DNA of 64,000 nt from Microbacterium sp. SLBN-154. Lineage in GTDB: Bacteria; Actinomycetota; Actinomycetes; Actinomycetales; Microbacteriaceae. The stretch lies in contig NZ_VFNL01000001.1 in the NCBI RefSeq assembly GCF_006715565.1, forward strand, positions 2,232,001 through 2,296,000, written 5' to 3'. The notes under the pieces are model-generated. The model saw only the letters and a program-made list of their open reading frames with translations, ran no database searches and was not told the origin of the DNA. The position numbers were made by a program, and so were the translations under genes. Shown in pieces: positions 27,854 through 34,949 of the stretch. The stretch's first letter is position 1, and each line of letters opens with the position of its first letter.

Positions 27854-30424
27854 ATGGCCACCATTCCCGACAAGCCCGCACTCGAGGGGCTGGAGCAGAT
27901 CTGGGACGAACGGTGGACCGCGGCGGGCACGTACGCCTTCGACCGGCTCCGCGCCGCCGAGGTGGGGCGCGAGGGCATCTACAGCGTCGACACCCCTCCT
28001 CCGACCGCCTCGGGGAGTCTGCACATCGGCCACGTCTTCAGCTACACCCACACCGATGTGAAGGTCCGCTTCGAGCGGATGCGCGGCAAGGTCGTCTTCT
28101 ACCCGATGGGGTGGGACGACAACGGCCTCCCCACGGAGCGACGGGTGCAGAACTACTACGGGGTGCGCTGCGATCCGAGTCTGGCCTACGACCCCGACTT
28201 CTCGCCGCCGTACGAGGGCGGCGACAACAAGTCCTCTCGGGCCGCCGATCAGATCCCGATCAGCCGGCGCAACTTCATCGAGCTCTGCGAGAAGCTCACC
28301 GTCGAAGATGAGAAGCACTTCGAGGCCCTGTGGCGGAACCTCGGCCTGAGCGTCGACTGGACGCAGACCTACCGCACGATCTCCGACGAGACGATGCGCA
28401 CCAGTCAGCTCGCGTTCCTCCGCAACATCGAGCGCGGTGAGGCCTACCAGGCCCTCGCCCCGACCCTGTGGGACATCGACTTCCGCTCGGCGATCGCGCA
28501 GGCCGAGCTCGAGGATCGGGAGCAGCCGGCGGCCTACCACCGGGTCGCCTTCCACCGCACAGACGGCAGCGGCGACATCCACATCGAGACCACCCGCCCC
28601 GAGCTCCTCCCCGCCTGCGTCGCGCTCGTGGCGCACCCCGACGACGAGCGCTACCGCGACGTCTTCGGCACGACCGTGCGGACACCCCTGTTCGACGTCG
28701 AGGTGCCGGTGCTCGCGCACCCGCTCGCCCAGCCCGACAAGGGGTCGGGTATCGCGATGATCTGCACGTTCGGCGATGTGACCGACATCATCTGGTGGCG
28801 CGAGCTCGACCTCCCCAACCGCACGATCCTCGGTCAGGACGGCCGGGTGATCGCCGACGCGCCCGATGCGATCACGTCGGACGCCGGTGTCTCGGCGTAC
28901 GCCGAGCTCGCCGGGAAGACCGTCTTCAGCGCCAAGAAGCGCATCGTCGAGCTCCTTCAGGACTCCGGTGAGCTCATCGGCGAACCGCGGCCGTTCACGC
29001 ACCCGGTGAAGTTCTACGAGAAGGGCGACCGCCCGCTCGAGATCGTCTCGACGCGCCAGTGGTACATCCGCAACGGCGCCCGCGACGCGGCGCTTCGAGA
29101 CCGGCTGATCTCGCTCGGACGGGAGCTGAGCTGGCACCCCGACTTCATGCGCGTGCGGTACGAGAACTGGACCAACGGGCTGACAGGAGACTGGCTCGTC
29201 TCACGTCAGCGATTCTTCGGCGTTCCGATCCCGGTCTGGTACGGGCTCGATGCCGACGGCAACCGCGACTACGACCGGGTCATCGTTCCCGGAGTCGCCC
29301 AGCTGCCGGTGGACCCCACGATCGACGTCCCCGGGGGATTCTCCGCCGACCAGCGCGGCGTACCCGGCGGCTTCGAGGGCGAGCAGGACATCTTCGACAC
29401 CTGGGCCACCTCCTCCCTCACCCCTCAGCTTGCGGGCGGCTGGGAGCGGGACCCCGAGCTGTGGGATCTCGTCACGCCGTTCGACCTGCGCCCGCAGGGT
29501 CAGGACATCATCCGCACCTGGCTGTTCTCCACCATGCTTCGCAGCGCCTTGGAAGACGGTCGGTCGCCCTGGCGGACGGCGGCGATCTCCGGCTTCATCG
29601 TCGACCCGGACCGCAAGAAGATGTCCAAGTCCAAGGGCAACGTCGTCACTCCCGCCGACATCCTCGCCCAGCACGGTTCCGACGCGGTCCGCTACTGGGC
29701 GGCATCCAGCCGGCTGGGAACGGATGCCGCGTTCGACCCGCAGAACCCCACGCAGATCAAGATCGGCAGGCGACTGGCGATCAAGATCCTGAACGCGGCG
29801 AAGTTCGTGCTCTCGTTCCCCGTGCCCGAGGCTGCCGAGATCACCCACCCCCTCGACGCCAGCATGCTGGCGACCCTCGACCGGGTGGTCGACGAGGCGA
29901 CGGCGGCGTGGGAGGCGTACGACCACGCGCGGGCCCTGGAGCTCACCGAGTCGTTCTTCTGGACGTTCTGCGACGACTATCTGGAGTTGGTCAAGGAACG
30001 TGCGTACGACCGGTCGACCGAGGGTGGTGGGTCTGCGGCGCTGGCCCTGCGCCAGGCACTGAGCGCCCTGCTGCGACTCTTCGCGCCGGTGCTCTCCTTC
30101 GCCACGGAGGAGGCATGGTCGTGGTTCAACGACGGTTCGGTCCACGTGGCCGAGTGGCCGCGATCGCAGGCGGTCGACGGCGATCCGCGTGTGCTGACGG
30201 CGGTGGGAAGCGCCCTCATCGGCATCCGTCGCGCCAAGACCGAAGCGAAGGTCTCGCAGAAGACGCCCGTGGCCGAGCTGACGATCCAGGCGCCGCCGGA
30301 GATCGTCGAGCACCTCCGCCTCGCCGAGGACGACCTGAAGGCGGTCGGTCGGGTCGCCCAGATCCGCTACACCGACGGTGCCGAGACGGTCGTCACCGAC
30401 ATCCGCTTCGCCGAGGAGGCCTGA
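27854..30424 (+). CDS. valS: Valyl-tRNA synthetase
   Basis: Charges tRNA-Val. The 856-aa class I enzyme shows PPTASGSLHIGH (HIGH motif near residue 57), the WDDNGLPTERR block, a CP1 editing domain, and KKMSKSKGN as the KMSKS loop, then the anticodon-binding domain with EEAWSWF. The shorter C-terminus without a long coiled-coil arm matches the form common in Microbacteriaceae. GAGGAG lies upstream of ATG 27854. TAGAAT near 27788 is a candidate -10 box giving a leader of about 60 nt. A 79-aa protein gene follows by 1 nt. Confidence 0.97.
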   Translation: MATIPDKPALEGLEQIWDERWTAAGTYAFDRLRAAEVGREGIYSVDTPPPTASGSLHIGHVFSYTHTDVKVRFERMRGKVVFYPMGWDDNGLPTERRVQNYYGVRCDPSLAYDPDFSPPYEGGDNKSSRAADQIPISRRNFIELCEKLTVEDEKHFEALWRNLGLSVDWTQTYRTISDETMRTSQLAFLRNIERGEAYQALAPTLWDIDFRSAIAQAELEDREQPAAYHRVAFHRTDGSGDIHIETTRPELLPACVALVAHPDDERYRDVFGTTVRTPLFDVEVPVLAHPLAQPDKGSGIAMICTFGDVTDIIWWRELDLPNRTILGQDGRVIADAPDAITSDAGVSAYAELAGKTVFSAKKRIVELLQDSGELIGEPRPFTHPVKFYEKGDRPLEIVSTRQWYIRNGARDAALRDRLISLGRELSWHPDFMRVRYENWTNGLTGDWLVSRQRFFGVPIPVWYGLDADGNRDYDRVIVPGVAQLPVDPTIDVPGGFSADQRGVPGGFEGEQDIFDTWATSSLTPQLAGGWERDPELWDLVTPFDLRPQGQDIIRTWLFSTMLRSALEDGRSPWRTAAISGFIVDPDRKKMSKSKGNVVTPADILAQHGSDAVRYWAASSRLGTDAAFDPQNPTQIKIGRRLAIKILNAAKFVLSFPVPEAAEITHPLDASMLATLDRVVDEATAAWEAYDHARALELTESFFWTFCDDYLELVKERAYDRSTEGGGSAALALRQALSALLRLFAPVLSFATEEAWSWFNDGSVHVAEWPRSQAVDGDPRVLTAVGSALIGIRRAKTEAKVSQKTPVAELTIQAPPEIVEHLRLAEDDLKAVGRVAQIRYTDGAETVVTDIRFAEEA

Positions 30425-30425
30425 C

Positions 30426-30665
30426 ATGCAGCTGGGAACGCGATGGACGTCGGGGGACGAACCGCCGGCGTCGGTGCCGCCCGCGGTCGCCGCGGCCGTC
30501 CGTTCCGTCGACGCCGCTTTCGGCTCAGCCGGTCCGCGCCCGCGGTGGACGCTGACGTGGCTGGAGGGCCGGCCGATCGCCGAACTCGACAACGGCGTGA
30601 TCGTCGAGCTCGACGCGGACGGGACCGCGGTAGTGCGTCATGACGACGAGGACGAGTTCGGCTGA
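30426..30665 (+). CDS. Small conserved hypothetical protein after valS, 79 aa
   Basis: Family not recognised. ATG at 30426 is 1 nt after the valS stop, so it is almost certainly translated from the same message by re-initiation. The product begins [19 protein letters not shown], has a helix ([12 protein letters not shown]), then a W-rich strand region ([33 protein letters not shown]) and an acidic tail. It is soluble and acidic. The end overlaps the convergent MFS gene by 28 bp. Confidence 0.75.
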
Positions 30666-31960
30666 GTCGCCTTCGGGCCTGACGACGTGGTCAGCGGGAG
30701 AGGGCCGGTCTGCCGACTGGCTGCGAGGATGAGACGGGTCGCCACCGCGGTCGCGGCCAGTGTCACTCCCGCGGCGATGATGTAGGGCAACCGCAGGTCG
30801 ACGCGAGCGGCGAGTCCGCCGGCGAGGGTCGCGATCGGGAACAGTCCCCATGTGAGGCTGCGGATGACGCCGAGGACGCGTCCGAAGACGTCGCCGGGCA
30901 CGATCAGCTGTCGGAGGGCGCCCCACGGAACGTTCCAGGTGGACACGGCGAAGGCCATGAGAGCGTAGAACACCACCGCGAGAACGACCCCGGGGGCCAC
31001 CGCGACGAGCGCCAGGCTCACCGCGGCGAGCAGGTTGGCGCCGAGCATCACCGCGCCGCGGCCGAACCGGTCCACCAGCAGTGGCGCGACGAGGGAACCC
31101 GCCAGAGCGCCGATTCCGATGCCGGCGGTCACGAAGCCGATCGCCGCCGGAGGCACGCCCTGGGTGTCGAGGAAATACAGGATGGTCGCCGCCTGTGCGA
31201 AGGAGAAGGCCGAACCCACCACGGAGGTGAAGATCACCAGGGCGCGGAGGTAGCGATGCCGCCACAGGTAGGCCAGGGCCGTGCGCGTGGAGATCGGCGA
31301 GGCCGGTCGGGTGCTGTCCTGGTCTCGGCGAGGTCGCGCGGCGGCGGCGGGCAGCAGCAGGGCGAGGACGATCGGCACCAGGTAGCCGACGGCGCCGAGC
31401 CAGAGCGGCAGAGCCAAGGAGACGGCGAAGAGCAGGCCCGCCACCGGTTGCGCCAGGAAGCTGTCGATCGTGATCTGCGCGGCCTGGATCCTGCCGTTCG
31501 CGCGATCCAGGCCGTTGGGCGCCACGAGCGCGGGGACGACCGCGTTCGTGGCGTTGTCGAACAGGGTCTCCCCCAGTCCGAACACCAGCACTCCCGCGAA
31601 CAGCGCCCAGATGGTCAGCTCATCGGTGACGGTGAGGATCGCCAGAGCGACCGCGGCACCTCCGCGGAGGATGTTCGCGCCTGCCATGATGATCCGCCGG
31701 TCGAAGCGGTCCACCAGCATCCCCGCCGGGAGGCCGAACACCAGCCAGGGCAGGAACGCCAGGGCGCCGACGGCGGCGATCGCGAGCGGATCGGTCGTCA
31801 GTGTCGTCGCGATGAGCGGAACCGCTGTGCGGCCCAGTCCATCGGCCAGGTTACTGAAGGCCGCCGCGGTCCACAGTCGGCCGAAGTCTCGGCCGAGGGG
31901 CGAGCGCCGCGGGGGGATCGGTCCGAGGTCGGGAATGATCTCGGACGTCGTATCGGTCAC
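30638..31960 (-). CDS. MFS transporter (drug-efflux-like) of the ArsR operon
   Basis: The 440-aa protein has about 12 hydrophobic helices with the MFS loop-2/3 motif [15 protein letters not shown] and a second-half counterpart [16 protein letters not shown], matching the enterobactin/macrolide-type exporter group (MFS_3). Substrate unknown. GTG at 31960 follows the stop of a 69-aa gene by 4 nt; that gene overlaps the ArsR-type regulator, so the three form one operon. A transporter under an ArsR-like repressor suggests induction by a small toxic ligand; that is inference. The 3' end overlaps the 79-aa gene by 28 bp. Confidence 0.85.
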
Positions 31961-31964
31961 CGTT

Positions 31965-32174
31965 TCAGCCCGGGAAGAGGCCGATCACGCCGCGCGCGAC
32001 CGCCCGATGACGGCGCTCGACGAAGGTGGCGAGCACGGCGGCGCTTCTTCGACCGACCGGACCGGTACGACGTTCGACACGGCGCGCCACCGCGCCCCGG
32101 GCGGCATCGGCAGCGACCAGGATCAGGCGTTCGATACCCGTGGTCGCGGTTACTGGGGTGGTGAGAGTGGTCAT
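31965..32174 (-). CDS. Small basic hypothetical protein of the ArsR-MFS operon, 69 aa
   Basis: No family recognised. ATG at 32174 overlaps the regulator stop as ATGA, with GGAGGT 5 nt upstream, an excellent ribosome binding site. The product begins with a Thr-rich stretch, then an amphipathic helix ([20 protein letters not shown]), and is strongly basic with many arginines ([21 protein letters not shown]). No transmembrane helix or cysteine is present. Another frame across this DNA is open (from GTG 32181) but has a worse start and a composition typical of a shadow frame. Its position between regulator and transporter suggests an accessory role, not determined. Confidence 0.65.
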
Positions 32175-32806
32175 GAGACACCTCCGATGTCGGGAAGCGG
32201 AAAGACGTCGGCGCGGATCGTGACGGGTCGCACGTCCTCGCCCTCCTGGTTGCGGTAGCGGTCGACGGTCTCGTCGATGATCGCCATGATGCGGTGGGTG
32301 AGCTCCGCGCTCTGAACGGGAGTCAGACGCGCGGTCGCTGTCGAGATGAGGCTCGCGTCCTTCCACTCGTCCTCCTCCAGCCCGATCGCGTGGTCGTGGA
32401 AGTCCAGGAGGGCCTGCTGACGCAGACGGAAGAACTCGCCGGTGACCAGCTGAGTGACCGCTCGCGCAGCCGGCGTCTTCGCCGCGCCCGCGGCACTCAT
32501 CGTCACTCCCCCGACCGGACGCTCCCACCAGCGTTCTCGGCCCGTCCCCTGACCGGGGCGCTCGCGGATGAGATCCTGCTTCGCCAGCGCGCGCAGGTGA
32601 TAGCTCGTCGAGCCCGTCGACTCCCCCAATCGCTCTGCGAGCGAACTGGCCGTCTGCGGACCGTACTGACTCAAGATGTCGTAGATCCTCACCCGGAGCG
32701 GGTGCGCCAGAGCGCGAAGGGCCTGCGGGTCCAAAACCCGATCGTTCGCGTGGCGGGATTCGACCCGCTCGGCCGCATCCGATTCATGCTCGTCCGGAGT
32801 GCTCAT
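32171..32806 (-). CDS. ArsR-like winged-helix transcriptional regulator
   Basis: Predicted autorepressor. The 211-aa protein has an N-terminal winged helix (about residues 24-95): RALAHPLRVRIYDILSQYGPQTASSLAERLGESTGSTSYHLRALAKQDLI, with GESTGSTSYHLRAL as recognition helix. The C-terminal 110 residues are helical and probably form a dimerisation or ligand domain. There is no obvious cysteine metal site, so a metal sensor is unlikely. ATG at 32806 follows a GATACT -10 box by 8 nt (near-leaderless). The promoter is covered by four TTGCAA repeats. It heads the regulator-69aa-MFS operon and is divergent from the M3 peptidase gene. Confidence 0.9.
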   Translation of the reverse strand: MSTPDEHESDAAERVESRHANDRVLDPQALRALAHPLRVRIYDILSQYGPQTASSLAERLGESTGSTSYHLRALAKQDLIRERPGQGTGRERWWERPVGGVTMSAAGAAKTPAARAVTQLVTGEFFRLRQQALLDFHDHAIGLEEDEWKDASLISTATARLTPVQSAELTHRIMAIIDETVDRYRNQEGEDVRPVTIRADVFPLPDIGGVS

Positions 32807-32807
32807 G

Positions 32808-32855
32808 TTGCAAGAGTATCTTTGCAAAGACTGCTTTGCAAGCATTAGTTTGCAA
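32808..32855. promoter_or_regulatory. Operator array: four TTGCAA palindromes with exact 14-bp period
   Basis: TTGCAA occurs at 32808, 32822, 32836 and 32850, every 14 bp. Copy 2 extends to a perfect 12-bp palindrome TCTTTGCAAAGA (32819-32830) and copy 4 to the 10-bp GTTTGCAAAC (32849-32858). On the minus strand, copy 3 coincides with the -35 region, copy 2 lies in the spacer, GATACT (32820-32815) is the -10, and copy 1 covers the expected transcription start just before the ArsR ATG. On the plus strand the array ends 8 bp before TTGGAC (32864-32869), the -35 of the M3 peptidase gene, whose -10 is TAGAGT (32886-32891). Confidence 0.85.
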
Positions 32856-32897
32856 ACACTCGGTTGGACCCCGCTCCCCCTCACCTAGAGTGAAGGG

Positions 32898-34949
32898 ATG
32901 ACCGACGACAACCCGCTGCTCACGTCCTCGTCCCTGCCCTACGGATTGCCGGAGTATCGCCGGATCGCGGCGGCCGACTACCTCCCGGCGTTCCGCGCCG
33001 CGTTCGCAGCGCATCGAGACGAGGTCGCGCGCATCGCTGCGGATCCCTCCGAGGCGACATTCGCGAACACCGTCGTCGCACTGGAGGAGTCGGGTCATCT
33101 TCTCGGCGACATCGCCCGCACGTTCTACACCGTCTCTTCCGCCGACGCCACCGAAGACATTCAGGCGGTCGAGGAGGAGCTCGCTCCCCTCATGGCGGCG
33201 CATCAGGACGCCATCCAGCTCGACCCCGCCCTCTATGCCCGCGTGCGCCACGTTTACGACGGCCGTCAGAACGAAGACCTGACACCCGAAGACCTGTATC
33301 TGGTCGAACGGCGCTATCGCGAGATGACCCACGCAGGTGCGGCGCTGGGAGACGACGCGAAGGAGCGACTGACCCAGCTCAATCAGCGACTGTCGACTCT
33401 CACGACGACCTTCGAGAAGAACCTGCTGGCTGACACGAACGACCTCGCGGTGGTGTTCGACGACGAGTCGGAGCTCGCCGGCCTCACGGAGGGGGAACTC
33501 TCCGCGGCCGCTCGGGCCGCTGCGGACCGGGGTATGGAGGGGAAGTACGTCGTGACCCTCACCCTGTTCACGGGCCACCCCTACCTCTCGAGCCTGACCG
33601 ATCGCGAGAGTCGGCGTCGCATCATGGCCGCGTCGCAGGCACGAGGCTCCCGCGGAAATGCCAACGACAATCGGGAGGTGCTGCGCGAGATCGTGCGCCT
33701 GCGCGCTGAGCGCGCCCAGCTCCTCGGGTACGACTCCCACGCAGCGTACGTCACAGCGGACGAGACCGCCGGGTCTCCCGAGGCCGTGCGCGAGCTGCTG
33801 TTCCGGTTGGCCGGACCGGCCGCCCGCAACGCTCGACAGGAGCAGGACGCCCTCCAGAAGATCATCGACGCGTCCGGCGAATCGTTCCCGCTGGCCGCGC
33901 ATGATTGGGCGTTCTACACCGAACGCGTGCGCGAAGCGGAATACGACCTCGACCGGGCGGCGCTTCGACCCTGGTTCGAGGCCGAGCGGGTTCTGCAGGA
34001 CGGCGTGTTCCGGGCCGCCACCGACCTCTACGGCGTGAGTTTCACCGAGCGACCCGACCTGCCCGCCTACCACCCCGAGGCGCGGGTGTTCGAGGTCCAC
34101 GATGCCGACGGCACCCCCGTCGGGCTCTACATCCTCGATCTCTACACCCGCGACACCAAGCGAGGCGGCGCGTGGATGAACTCGATCGTGGTGCAGTCGC
34201 GCCTGCGAGGCACGGCGGCCGTGGTGGTGAACAATCTCAACGTCCCCCAGCCCTCCCCTGGGCAGCCGACTCTCCTCACCCTCGACGAGGTCACCACGCT
34301 CTTCCACGAGTTCGGCCACGCTCTGCACGGCCTTTTCGCAAGGGTGACCTACCCGTCCTTCGGAGGCACGAACGTCTTCCGCGACTTCGTGGAGTTCCCG
34401 AGCCAGGTCAACGAGATGTGGATCTACTGGCCCGAGATCCTCAGCTCGTACGCCCGTCACGTCGACACCGACGAGCCGCTGCCCGCAGACGTCGTCGAGA
34501 GACTGCACGCATCAGAGGCGTTCAATCAGGGCTTCTCCACCAGCGAGTACCTGGCCGCGTCCTGGATCGATCAGGCCTGGCATCGCCTCGGAGCCGAAGA
34601 CGCGGCGGCGGGCCTCGATGTCGCGACCTTCGAAGCCCGCGCCCTGGCCGAGATCGGGCTCGACAACCCCGCCGTGCCGACCCGCTACTCCTCCGCCTAT
34701 TTCGCCCACGTGTTCTCCGGCGGCTACAGCGCCGGGTACTACTCCTACATCTGGAGCGAGGTGCTCGACGCCGACGCGGTCGAATGGTTTCGCGAGAACG
34801 GGGGGCTCACCCGACAGAACGGGGATCGGTTCCGTCAGCGGCTGCTCGGAGTCGGTGGGTCGAAGGATCCGCTCGAGGCGTACCGCGACTTCCGGGGCCG
34901 GGATGCCGAAATCGCTCCGCTGCTGCGCCGACGCGGCCTCGCCGCGTGA
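32898..34949 (+). CDS. M3 family metallopeptidase, peptidyl-dipeptidase Dcp-like
   Basis: Zinc oligopeptidase of the thimet/Dcp family that degrades short peptides in the cytoplasm. The 683-aa protein lacks a signal peptide. The zinc motif HEFGH is at 470-474 (TLFHEFGHALHGLF), with the downstream ligand region EFPSQVNEMW, and the C-terminal FAHVFSGGYSAGYYSYIWSEVLDADA block typical of the Dcp group. ATG at 32898 is 6 nt after TAGAGT, likely leaderless. It is divergent from the ArsR regulator, and the TTGCAA array lies between them, so it may share the control. Dcp itself is E. coli; the exact cleavage specificity here is not known. Confidence 0.93.
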   Translation: MTDDNPLLTSSSLPYGLPEYRRIAAADYLPAFRAAFAAHRDEVARIAADPSEATFANTVVALEESGHLLGDIARTFYTVSSADATEDIQAVEEELAPLMAAHQDAIQLDPALYARVRHVYDGRQNEDLTPEDLYLVERRYREMTHAGAALGDDAKERLTQLNQRLSTLTTTFEKNLLADTNDLAVVFDDESELAGLTEGELSAAARAAADRGMEGKYVVTLTLFTGHPYLSSLTDRESRRRIMAASQARGSRGNANDNREVLREIVRLRAERAQLLGYDSHAAYVTADETAGSPEAVRELLFRLAGPAARNARQEQDALQKIIDASGESFPLAAHDWAFYTERVREAEYDLDRAALRPWFEAERVLQDGVFRAATDLYGVSFTERPDLPAYHPEARVFEVHDADGTPVGLYILDLYTRDTKRGGAWMNSIVVQSRLRGTAAVVVNNLNVPQPSPGQPTLLTLDEVTTLFHEFGHALHGLFARVTYPSFGGTNVFRDFVEFPSQVNEMWIYWPEILSSYARHVDTDEPLPADVVERLHASEAFNQGFSTSEYLAASWIDQAWHRLGAEDAAAGLDVATFEARALAEIGLDNPAVPTRYSSAYFAHVFSGGYSAGYYSYIWSEVLDADAVEWFRENGGLTRQNGDRFRQRLLGVGGSKDPLEAYRDFRGRDAEIAPLLRRRGLAA

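Follow-up and report, generated by a model that had tools for sequence, protein, structure and literature searches.

The ribbon-helix-helix protein MetJ recognizes 8-bp met boxes, palindromes laid end to end in variable number, on which dimers bind cooperatively side by side. For the SmtB/ArsR metalloregulators, the available text describes 12-2-12 operators, one or two of them near the promoter, and cooperative binding by AzuR (PMC8790569). For Rv2034 of Mycobacterium tuberculosis, an ArsR-like autorepressor, the accessible portion of the report describes a footprint close to its own start, on an inverted repeat whose halves are separated by a 4-bp spacer, and weaker binding of a half palindrome (PMC3338718).

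Here we analyzed a 64,000-nucleotide stretch of the genome of Microbacterium sp. SLBN-154 (the window), in which an array of TTGCAA repeats precedes a gene for an ArsR-like (HTH_20) regulator. On the sequence evidence, we put the probability that the array is the operator through which this adjacent regulator represses its own gene at roughly 0.8. We refer to the candidate dimer sites as tiles and to the TTGCAA words between them as seams; a seam appears as TTGCAA because abutting tiles share TGCA. Like met boxes, the palindromic units are contiguous (two to seven seams at 14 bp), with interior tiles that are lopsided. MetJ is a ribbon-helix-helix protein with 8-bp boxes, whereas here a winged helix goes with 14-bp tiles. 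By analogy, the array would work as met boxes do, with dimers side by side. Rv2034 is likewise an actinobacterial ArsR-like regulator with an inverted repeat and 4-bp spacer by its own start, and self-repression is predicted here as well (PMC3338718). However, the accessible portion of that report describes a single 20-bp site with arms CCGTAAGT and no tiled array, and its AAG and CTT are 6 bases apart rather than 4 (PMC3338718). With the SmtB/ArsR metalloregulators, as far as the available text describes them, the regulator has the winged-helix fold in common; unlike them, it has no cysteine, its arms are 7-4-7 and not 12-2-12, and up to seven seams stand in phase (PMC8790569). We found no described ArsR operator of TTGCAA words at 14 bp in the literature covered, which includes few subscription journals.

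The array and the ArsR-like regulator

TTGCAA starts at positions 32808, 32822, 32836 and 32850 of the window (array 32808..32855, minus strand), at the exact 14-bp period that an earlier sequence-only reading had reported, and the 64 kb hold no fifth copy. Across the whole 3.57-Mb genome, TTGCAA-N8-TTGCAA occurs in this array only, as three overlapping matches per strand, and a reversed-pattern control gave 0 matches. The same reading had judged the repeats very unlikely by chance. This holds for the fixed spacing but not for the number alone: four or more copies appeared in 11 of 100 shuffles (mean 1.74), whereas the shuffle rate, in a rough estimate that assumes independence, predicts about 3.5e-14 chains of four copies at a single fixed period per window. 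A chance origin of the array was rejected. The estimate of the sequence-only reading that three periods make about four helical turns agrees with our arithmetic, 14 bp being 1.33 turns or 120 degrees per unit. GC content is 39% at 32800-32860, against 69% in the window.

The regulator (211 aa; 32171..32806, minus strand) has its start codon just a single base away from the first TTGCAA. Domain models place it in the ArsR/HTH_20 winged-helix family, with Pfam scores above cut-off for HTH_20 (47.9 bits, cut-off 27), HTH_5/ArsR (33.1, cut-off 22), MarR (26.8, cut-off 24.6) and HTH_24 (24.1, cut-off 21.9). The NCBIfam metalloregulator model NF033788 scored 43.4 bits, under its cut-off of 55, and the 211 residues include zero cysteines, so the cysteine-containing metal site of ArsR/SmtB proteins is lacking. 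Because of these two results the protein is unlikely to be a metal-thiolate sensor, in a comparison restricted to metal sites with cysteine. Its predicted structure is a winged helix followed by a long helical C-terminal part (pLDDT 85.4, pTM 0.79). The most complete fold match is PDB 4g6q (Kfla_6221 of Kribbella flavida), at 16-19% identity; a sequence search of the PDB returned two weak matches.

Conservation upstream of regulator genes

We surveyed 149 genomes of the genus, including the window's own, of which 135 had a regulator-like match, and assembled 107 orthologous loci of the Microbacterium group (L004-L110; one per genome, E < 1e-35). Upstream of the regulator, every one of the 107 has two or more words that match TTGCAA with no more than one mismatch and follow a 14-bp grid: two copies in 5 loci, three in 29, four in 61 and five in 12. 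A single exact TTGCAA is all that 21 of the 107 have. Exact copies are spaced by 14 bp (133 steps) or 28 bp (3 steps), and control periods of 7-13 and 15-24 bp never gave more than two copies. The strict pattern TTGCAA-N8-TTGCAA-N8-TTGCA occurs in 73 of 148 genus genomes (reversed control 0), and all of its 173 matches on both strands, in 73 loci, precede the regulator by no more than 300 bp. A strict array away from the regulator was not seen in any of those 148 genomes.

The link extends beyond the genus. A relaxed pattern, TTGCA-N9-TTGCA-N9-TTGCA, is present in 96 of 349 family genomes and 37 of 85 genera (reversed control 4/349), and the regulator lies directly downstream in 30 of 30 sampled matches. 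Among loci chosen instead by regulator similarity (80 of 592 relatives), from genera including Arthrobacter, Psychromicrobium, Leifsonia, Homoserinimonas and Terrimesophilobacter, every one has at least two copies. At class level the relaxed pattern occurs in 31 of 325 genomes (reversed control 5/325), and the regulator adjoins the array in 23 of 26 sampled loci, or 16 of 19 without the seven genus members; the exceptions are L245, L246 and L247. The genomes compared are related, and all these counts overstate the independent events. The check that the sequence-only reading had proposed, for repeats upstream of orthologues, is thus strongly positive, and by sequence comparison the array is a conserved control region tied to the regulator gene.

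Some places matching the relaxed pattern in family genomes resemble exact minisatellites. For instance, the 14-bp repeat TTGCACTGGCTGTC at G337:C106:175856-175930 fits the pattern and looks like a different repeat. At L110, TCTGTGGCGGACAA-like words are repeated immediately ahead of the array.

Position of the predicted dimer site

Interior copies of TTGCAA are near-invariant palindromes (T at -3 in.93, A at +3 in.94), as would be expected if each palindrome were a dimer site and several dimers were arranged around the helix, which is what the sequence-only reading had proposed. The terminal copies are instead strongly one-sided. We located the array ends by the symmetric core TGCA alone in 99 distinct arrays of at least three copies. 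In the left-end copy, T-3 is found in.54 against.89 for A+3 (.37 against.98 at the next position); in the right-end copy the values are.95 against.28 (.85 against.22). Paired tests at -3/+3, uncorrected for kinship, gave p values of 6e-10 (left) and 1e-16 (right). When the set was thinned so that regulators shared less than 90, 75 or 65% identity, 77, 35 and 17 arrays remained, and the last 17 show.41 against.88 on the left and.94 against.41 on the right. At both ends, the conserved half is the inward-facing one. Part of the right-end asymmetry could stem from the start region.

Diverged paralogues bear on the same question, as those with one isolated site retain the arms flanking a 4-bp spacer. 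Because the conserved terminal halves point inward and the paralogues use an AAG-N4-CTT frame, the dimer site would lie between the seams: TGCAAAG-N4-CTTTGCA, tiled every 14 bp, is the likely dimer site and TTGCAA the seam. The Rv2034 footprint, as given in the accessible portion of that report, is a precedent for a dyad within a 4-bp spacer (PMC3338718). TTGCAA as the dimer centre was rejected on the terminal asymmetry, and we consider a dimer on each palindrome unlikely. Interior tiles are lopsided in that the left arm, CAAAG, is strong and the right arm is mostly TTG only. The tile centre showed no excess of self-complementarity over shuffled pairings, so the symmetry of the candidate tile rests on its arms.

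The window holds three predicted dimer sites, all read on the minus strand. Tile A (32809..32826; TGCAAAG-ATAC-TCTTGCA) is proximal to the promoter and contains the -10-like TACTCT, tile B (32823..32840) has the perfect consensus TGCAAAG-N4-CTTTGCA, and tile C (32837..32854; TGCAAAC-TAAT-GCTTGCA) lies upstream.

In a first set of 23 diverged paralogues, AAG-N4-CTT was found upstream of 13. It gave 21 hits, where shuffles averaged 0.52 (maximum 3) and any other spacer from 0 to 12 gave at most 6. Seven of the 13 paralogues have two tiles 14 bp apart and the others one tile. The exact motif is absent in 10 of the 23, and in 6 of 19 paralogues of a second set; some of these show 13-bp steps. The flanking letters largely go with the recognition helix, as judged from the sequences. 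The helix GE[STN][ST]G[SA]TSYHL pairs with TGCAAAG, PSN[CS]SYHL with CTGAAA, and TN[ST]GATSYHL with TGCACA and TGCAAAG in 13-bp steps. The helix [PA]ASCSFHL pairs with CTAAAG or CGAAAG in five paralogues, yet L251 and L252 combine the common PASCSFHL helix with ATGAAAG and GCGCAAG, a mismatch of helix and site. QVGSISHHL pairs with ATACAAG, with none in the stretch scanned for L255, whose start is probably misplaced.

These helix-site classes were stated before the 19 further paralogues of the second set were compared. Fourteen of the 19 could be assigned to one of these classes if L272 and L278, with V in place of I, are included. The QVGSxSHHL helix goes with ATACAAG-N4-CTTGT in 12 of 12 loci, which is weaker than the count suggests as these loci appear to be orthologous to one another and to loci of the first set. 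The TN[ST]GATSYHL helix goes with TGCACAG in 13-bp steps in 2 of 2. The remaining stated classes had no case in this set. In L282 the helix belongs to no stated class and one tile is present, and no tile was seen upstream of L270, L281, L283 and L287. Ahead of the QVGSxSHHL paralogues, ATACAAG-N4-CTTGT stands as a single site (L271 and 11 others, and also L264, L265 and L268); in L273 and L280, the arrays ahead of the TNTGATSYHL paralogues are of the TGCACA type and have a 13-bp step.

Promoter phase, neighbouring genes and predicted regulation

On the minus strand, the predicted promoter of the regulator runs from a -35-like TTGCAA (32836..32841), itself a seam, across 17 bp to the -10-like TACTCT (32813..32818), with the ATG at 32806. 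Copies of the repeat thus lie over the -35, spacer and start of the regulator, and in this the placement fits by sequence what had been proposed. The transcript would be leaderless. Both elements were read by the phase of relatives. Of the 107 loci, 102 arrays were aligned at their last seam, leaving out those with too little sequence (the window's own row included), a chain that was too short or a duplicate row. TANNNT lies at -6 relative to the last seam in 67 arrays and at +8 in 30, never at both, and other offsets have at most 2; it is at neither offset in L025, L028, L048, L049 and L052. An exact TTGCAA stands 17 bp upstream of TANNNT in 88 of these 97 arrays. A promoter-like motif is therefore locked to the array grid in 97 of 102, and by eye the window sequence matches the -6 group. 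Since a sigma-70 consensus scan of 30400-33000 found no promoter, the assignment rests on the conservation of grid phase in relatives and not on consensus quality. The -10-like positions of different loci (L004-L110) are exactly one tile apart, which suggests whole-tile shifts of either the promoter or the array. An RNA hairpin or terminator was also considered, given one terminator-like match at 32821-32842 (plus strand), but was rejected, as the array lies upstream of the predicted start.

Upstream, a divergent M3 peptidase gene (32898..34949, plus strand) was identified by domain models, its best NCBIfam model being peptidyl-dipeptidase Dcp, below cut-off. Downstream is an MFS transporter gene (MFS_1/MFS_3; 30638..31960, minus strand), an optional operon member across the genus. 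The array might be a bidirectional control region evolved to co-regulate exporter operon and peptidase, and the sequence-only reading had proposed such joint control. M3 is the divergent neighbour in 79 of the 107 loci, and in the window its -35-like TTGGAC (32864-32869) is near the array, although to say that the array abuts it, as had been done, is loose: it lies 8 bp past the end of the outermost copy at 32855. Against this, 28 loci keep the array without M3 (27 scanned over about 2.5 kb upstream, one over 870 bp) and 64 without an MFS gene in the downstream DNA examined, where 43 have one. Of those 64, 62 reach valS instead, and L038 and L104 show neither MFS gene nor valS. Moreover, array and regulator promoter motif stay in phase. 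As the array is present in every neighbour group, an exporter-peptidase pairing was rejected as the conserved function, and we regard co-regulation as the evolved role of the array as even less likely than dimers on each palindrome; M3 may be affected in this strain.

In the autorepressor mechanism that we propose, a regulator dimer would bind TGCAAAG-N4-CTTTGCA with its two-fold axis inside the four-base spacer. An array would consist of one to six of these sites, with two to seven seams, lying edge to edge every 14 bp with TGCA in common. Each next dimer would be rotated by 120 degrees, and four helical turns would pass over three tiles. The -35, spacer and -10 of the promoter from which the regulator itself is transcribed would be covered by tiles in the window. 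Their occupancy would silence the regulator and a small ORF, as well as the MFS gene in loci that have one, until a signal releases the dimers. That another factor reads the sites and the regulator is merely a frequent neighbour is the least probable of the alternatives: binding by the regulator is a prediction and 3 of 26 sampled class loci have the relaxed pattern without it, but the regulator accompanies every one of the 173 strict matches in the 148 genus genomes, and paralogue helices pair with other letters in the same AAG-N4-CTT frame.

More tentatively, and with somewhat less than even confidence, we suggest that a whole ArsR-like subfamily in Actinomycetia recognizes its operators by a modular code, in which the AAG-N4-CTT frame is fixed, the flanking letters are set by the helix and one to several tiles are added in 13- or 14-bp steps. 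On these, dimers would polymerise as a spiral around the promoter, the number of tiles setting the sharpness of the switch. The ancestral job would be to control the regulator jointly with a coupled small helical protein, with exporters as later additions. If true, this would provide a readable operator grammar for widespread, little-described actinobacterial regulators, with the site guessable from the recognition helix, and natural variation in tile number would be a ready test of promoter tuning by side-by-side dimers. It would also highlight the conserved small protein.

This protein, encoded in the window by a small basic ORF of 69 aa (31965..32174, minus strand) with a four-base overlap at the regulator stop, is the steadiest partner of the regulator, unlike the M3 or MFS gene. 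Judged by position and length, 103 of 107 loci have a coupled ORF of similar size (about 70 aa; 64-81 aa) after the regulator, 84 of them with the four-base overlap, and it is missing in L057, L058, L059 and L065. Pfam searches with seven of these ORFs gave nothing above cut-off. A sequence search with the one from L082 returned 102 proteins, the named ones nearly all Microbacterium hypothetical proteins, and the structure predicted for its group (P0121) is one long helix (pLDDT 80.6, pTM 0.46). Small ORFs occur at the same place in several other genera. In L236, L239 and L244, at roughly the same place downstream of the regulator, they end in a GWxLVxxGxRL-like sequence and possibly have the same role as the Microbacterium ORF.
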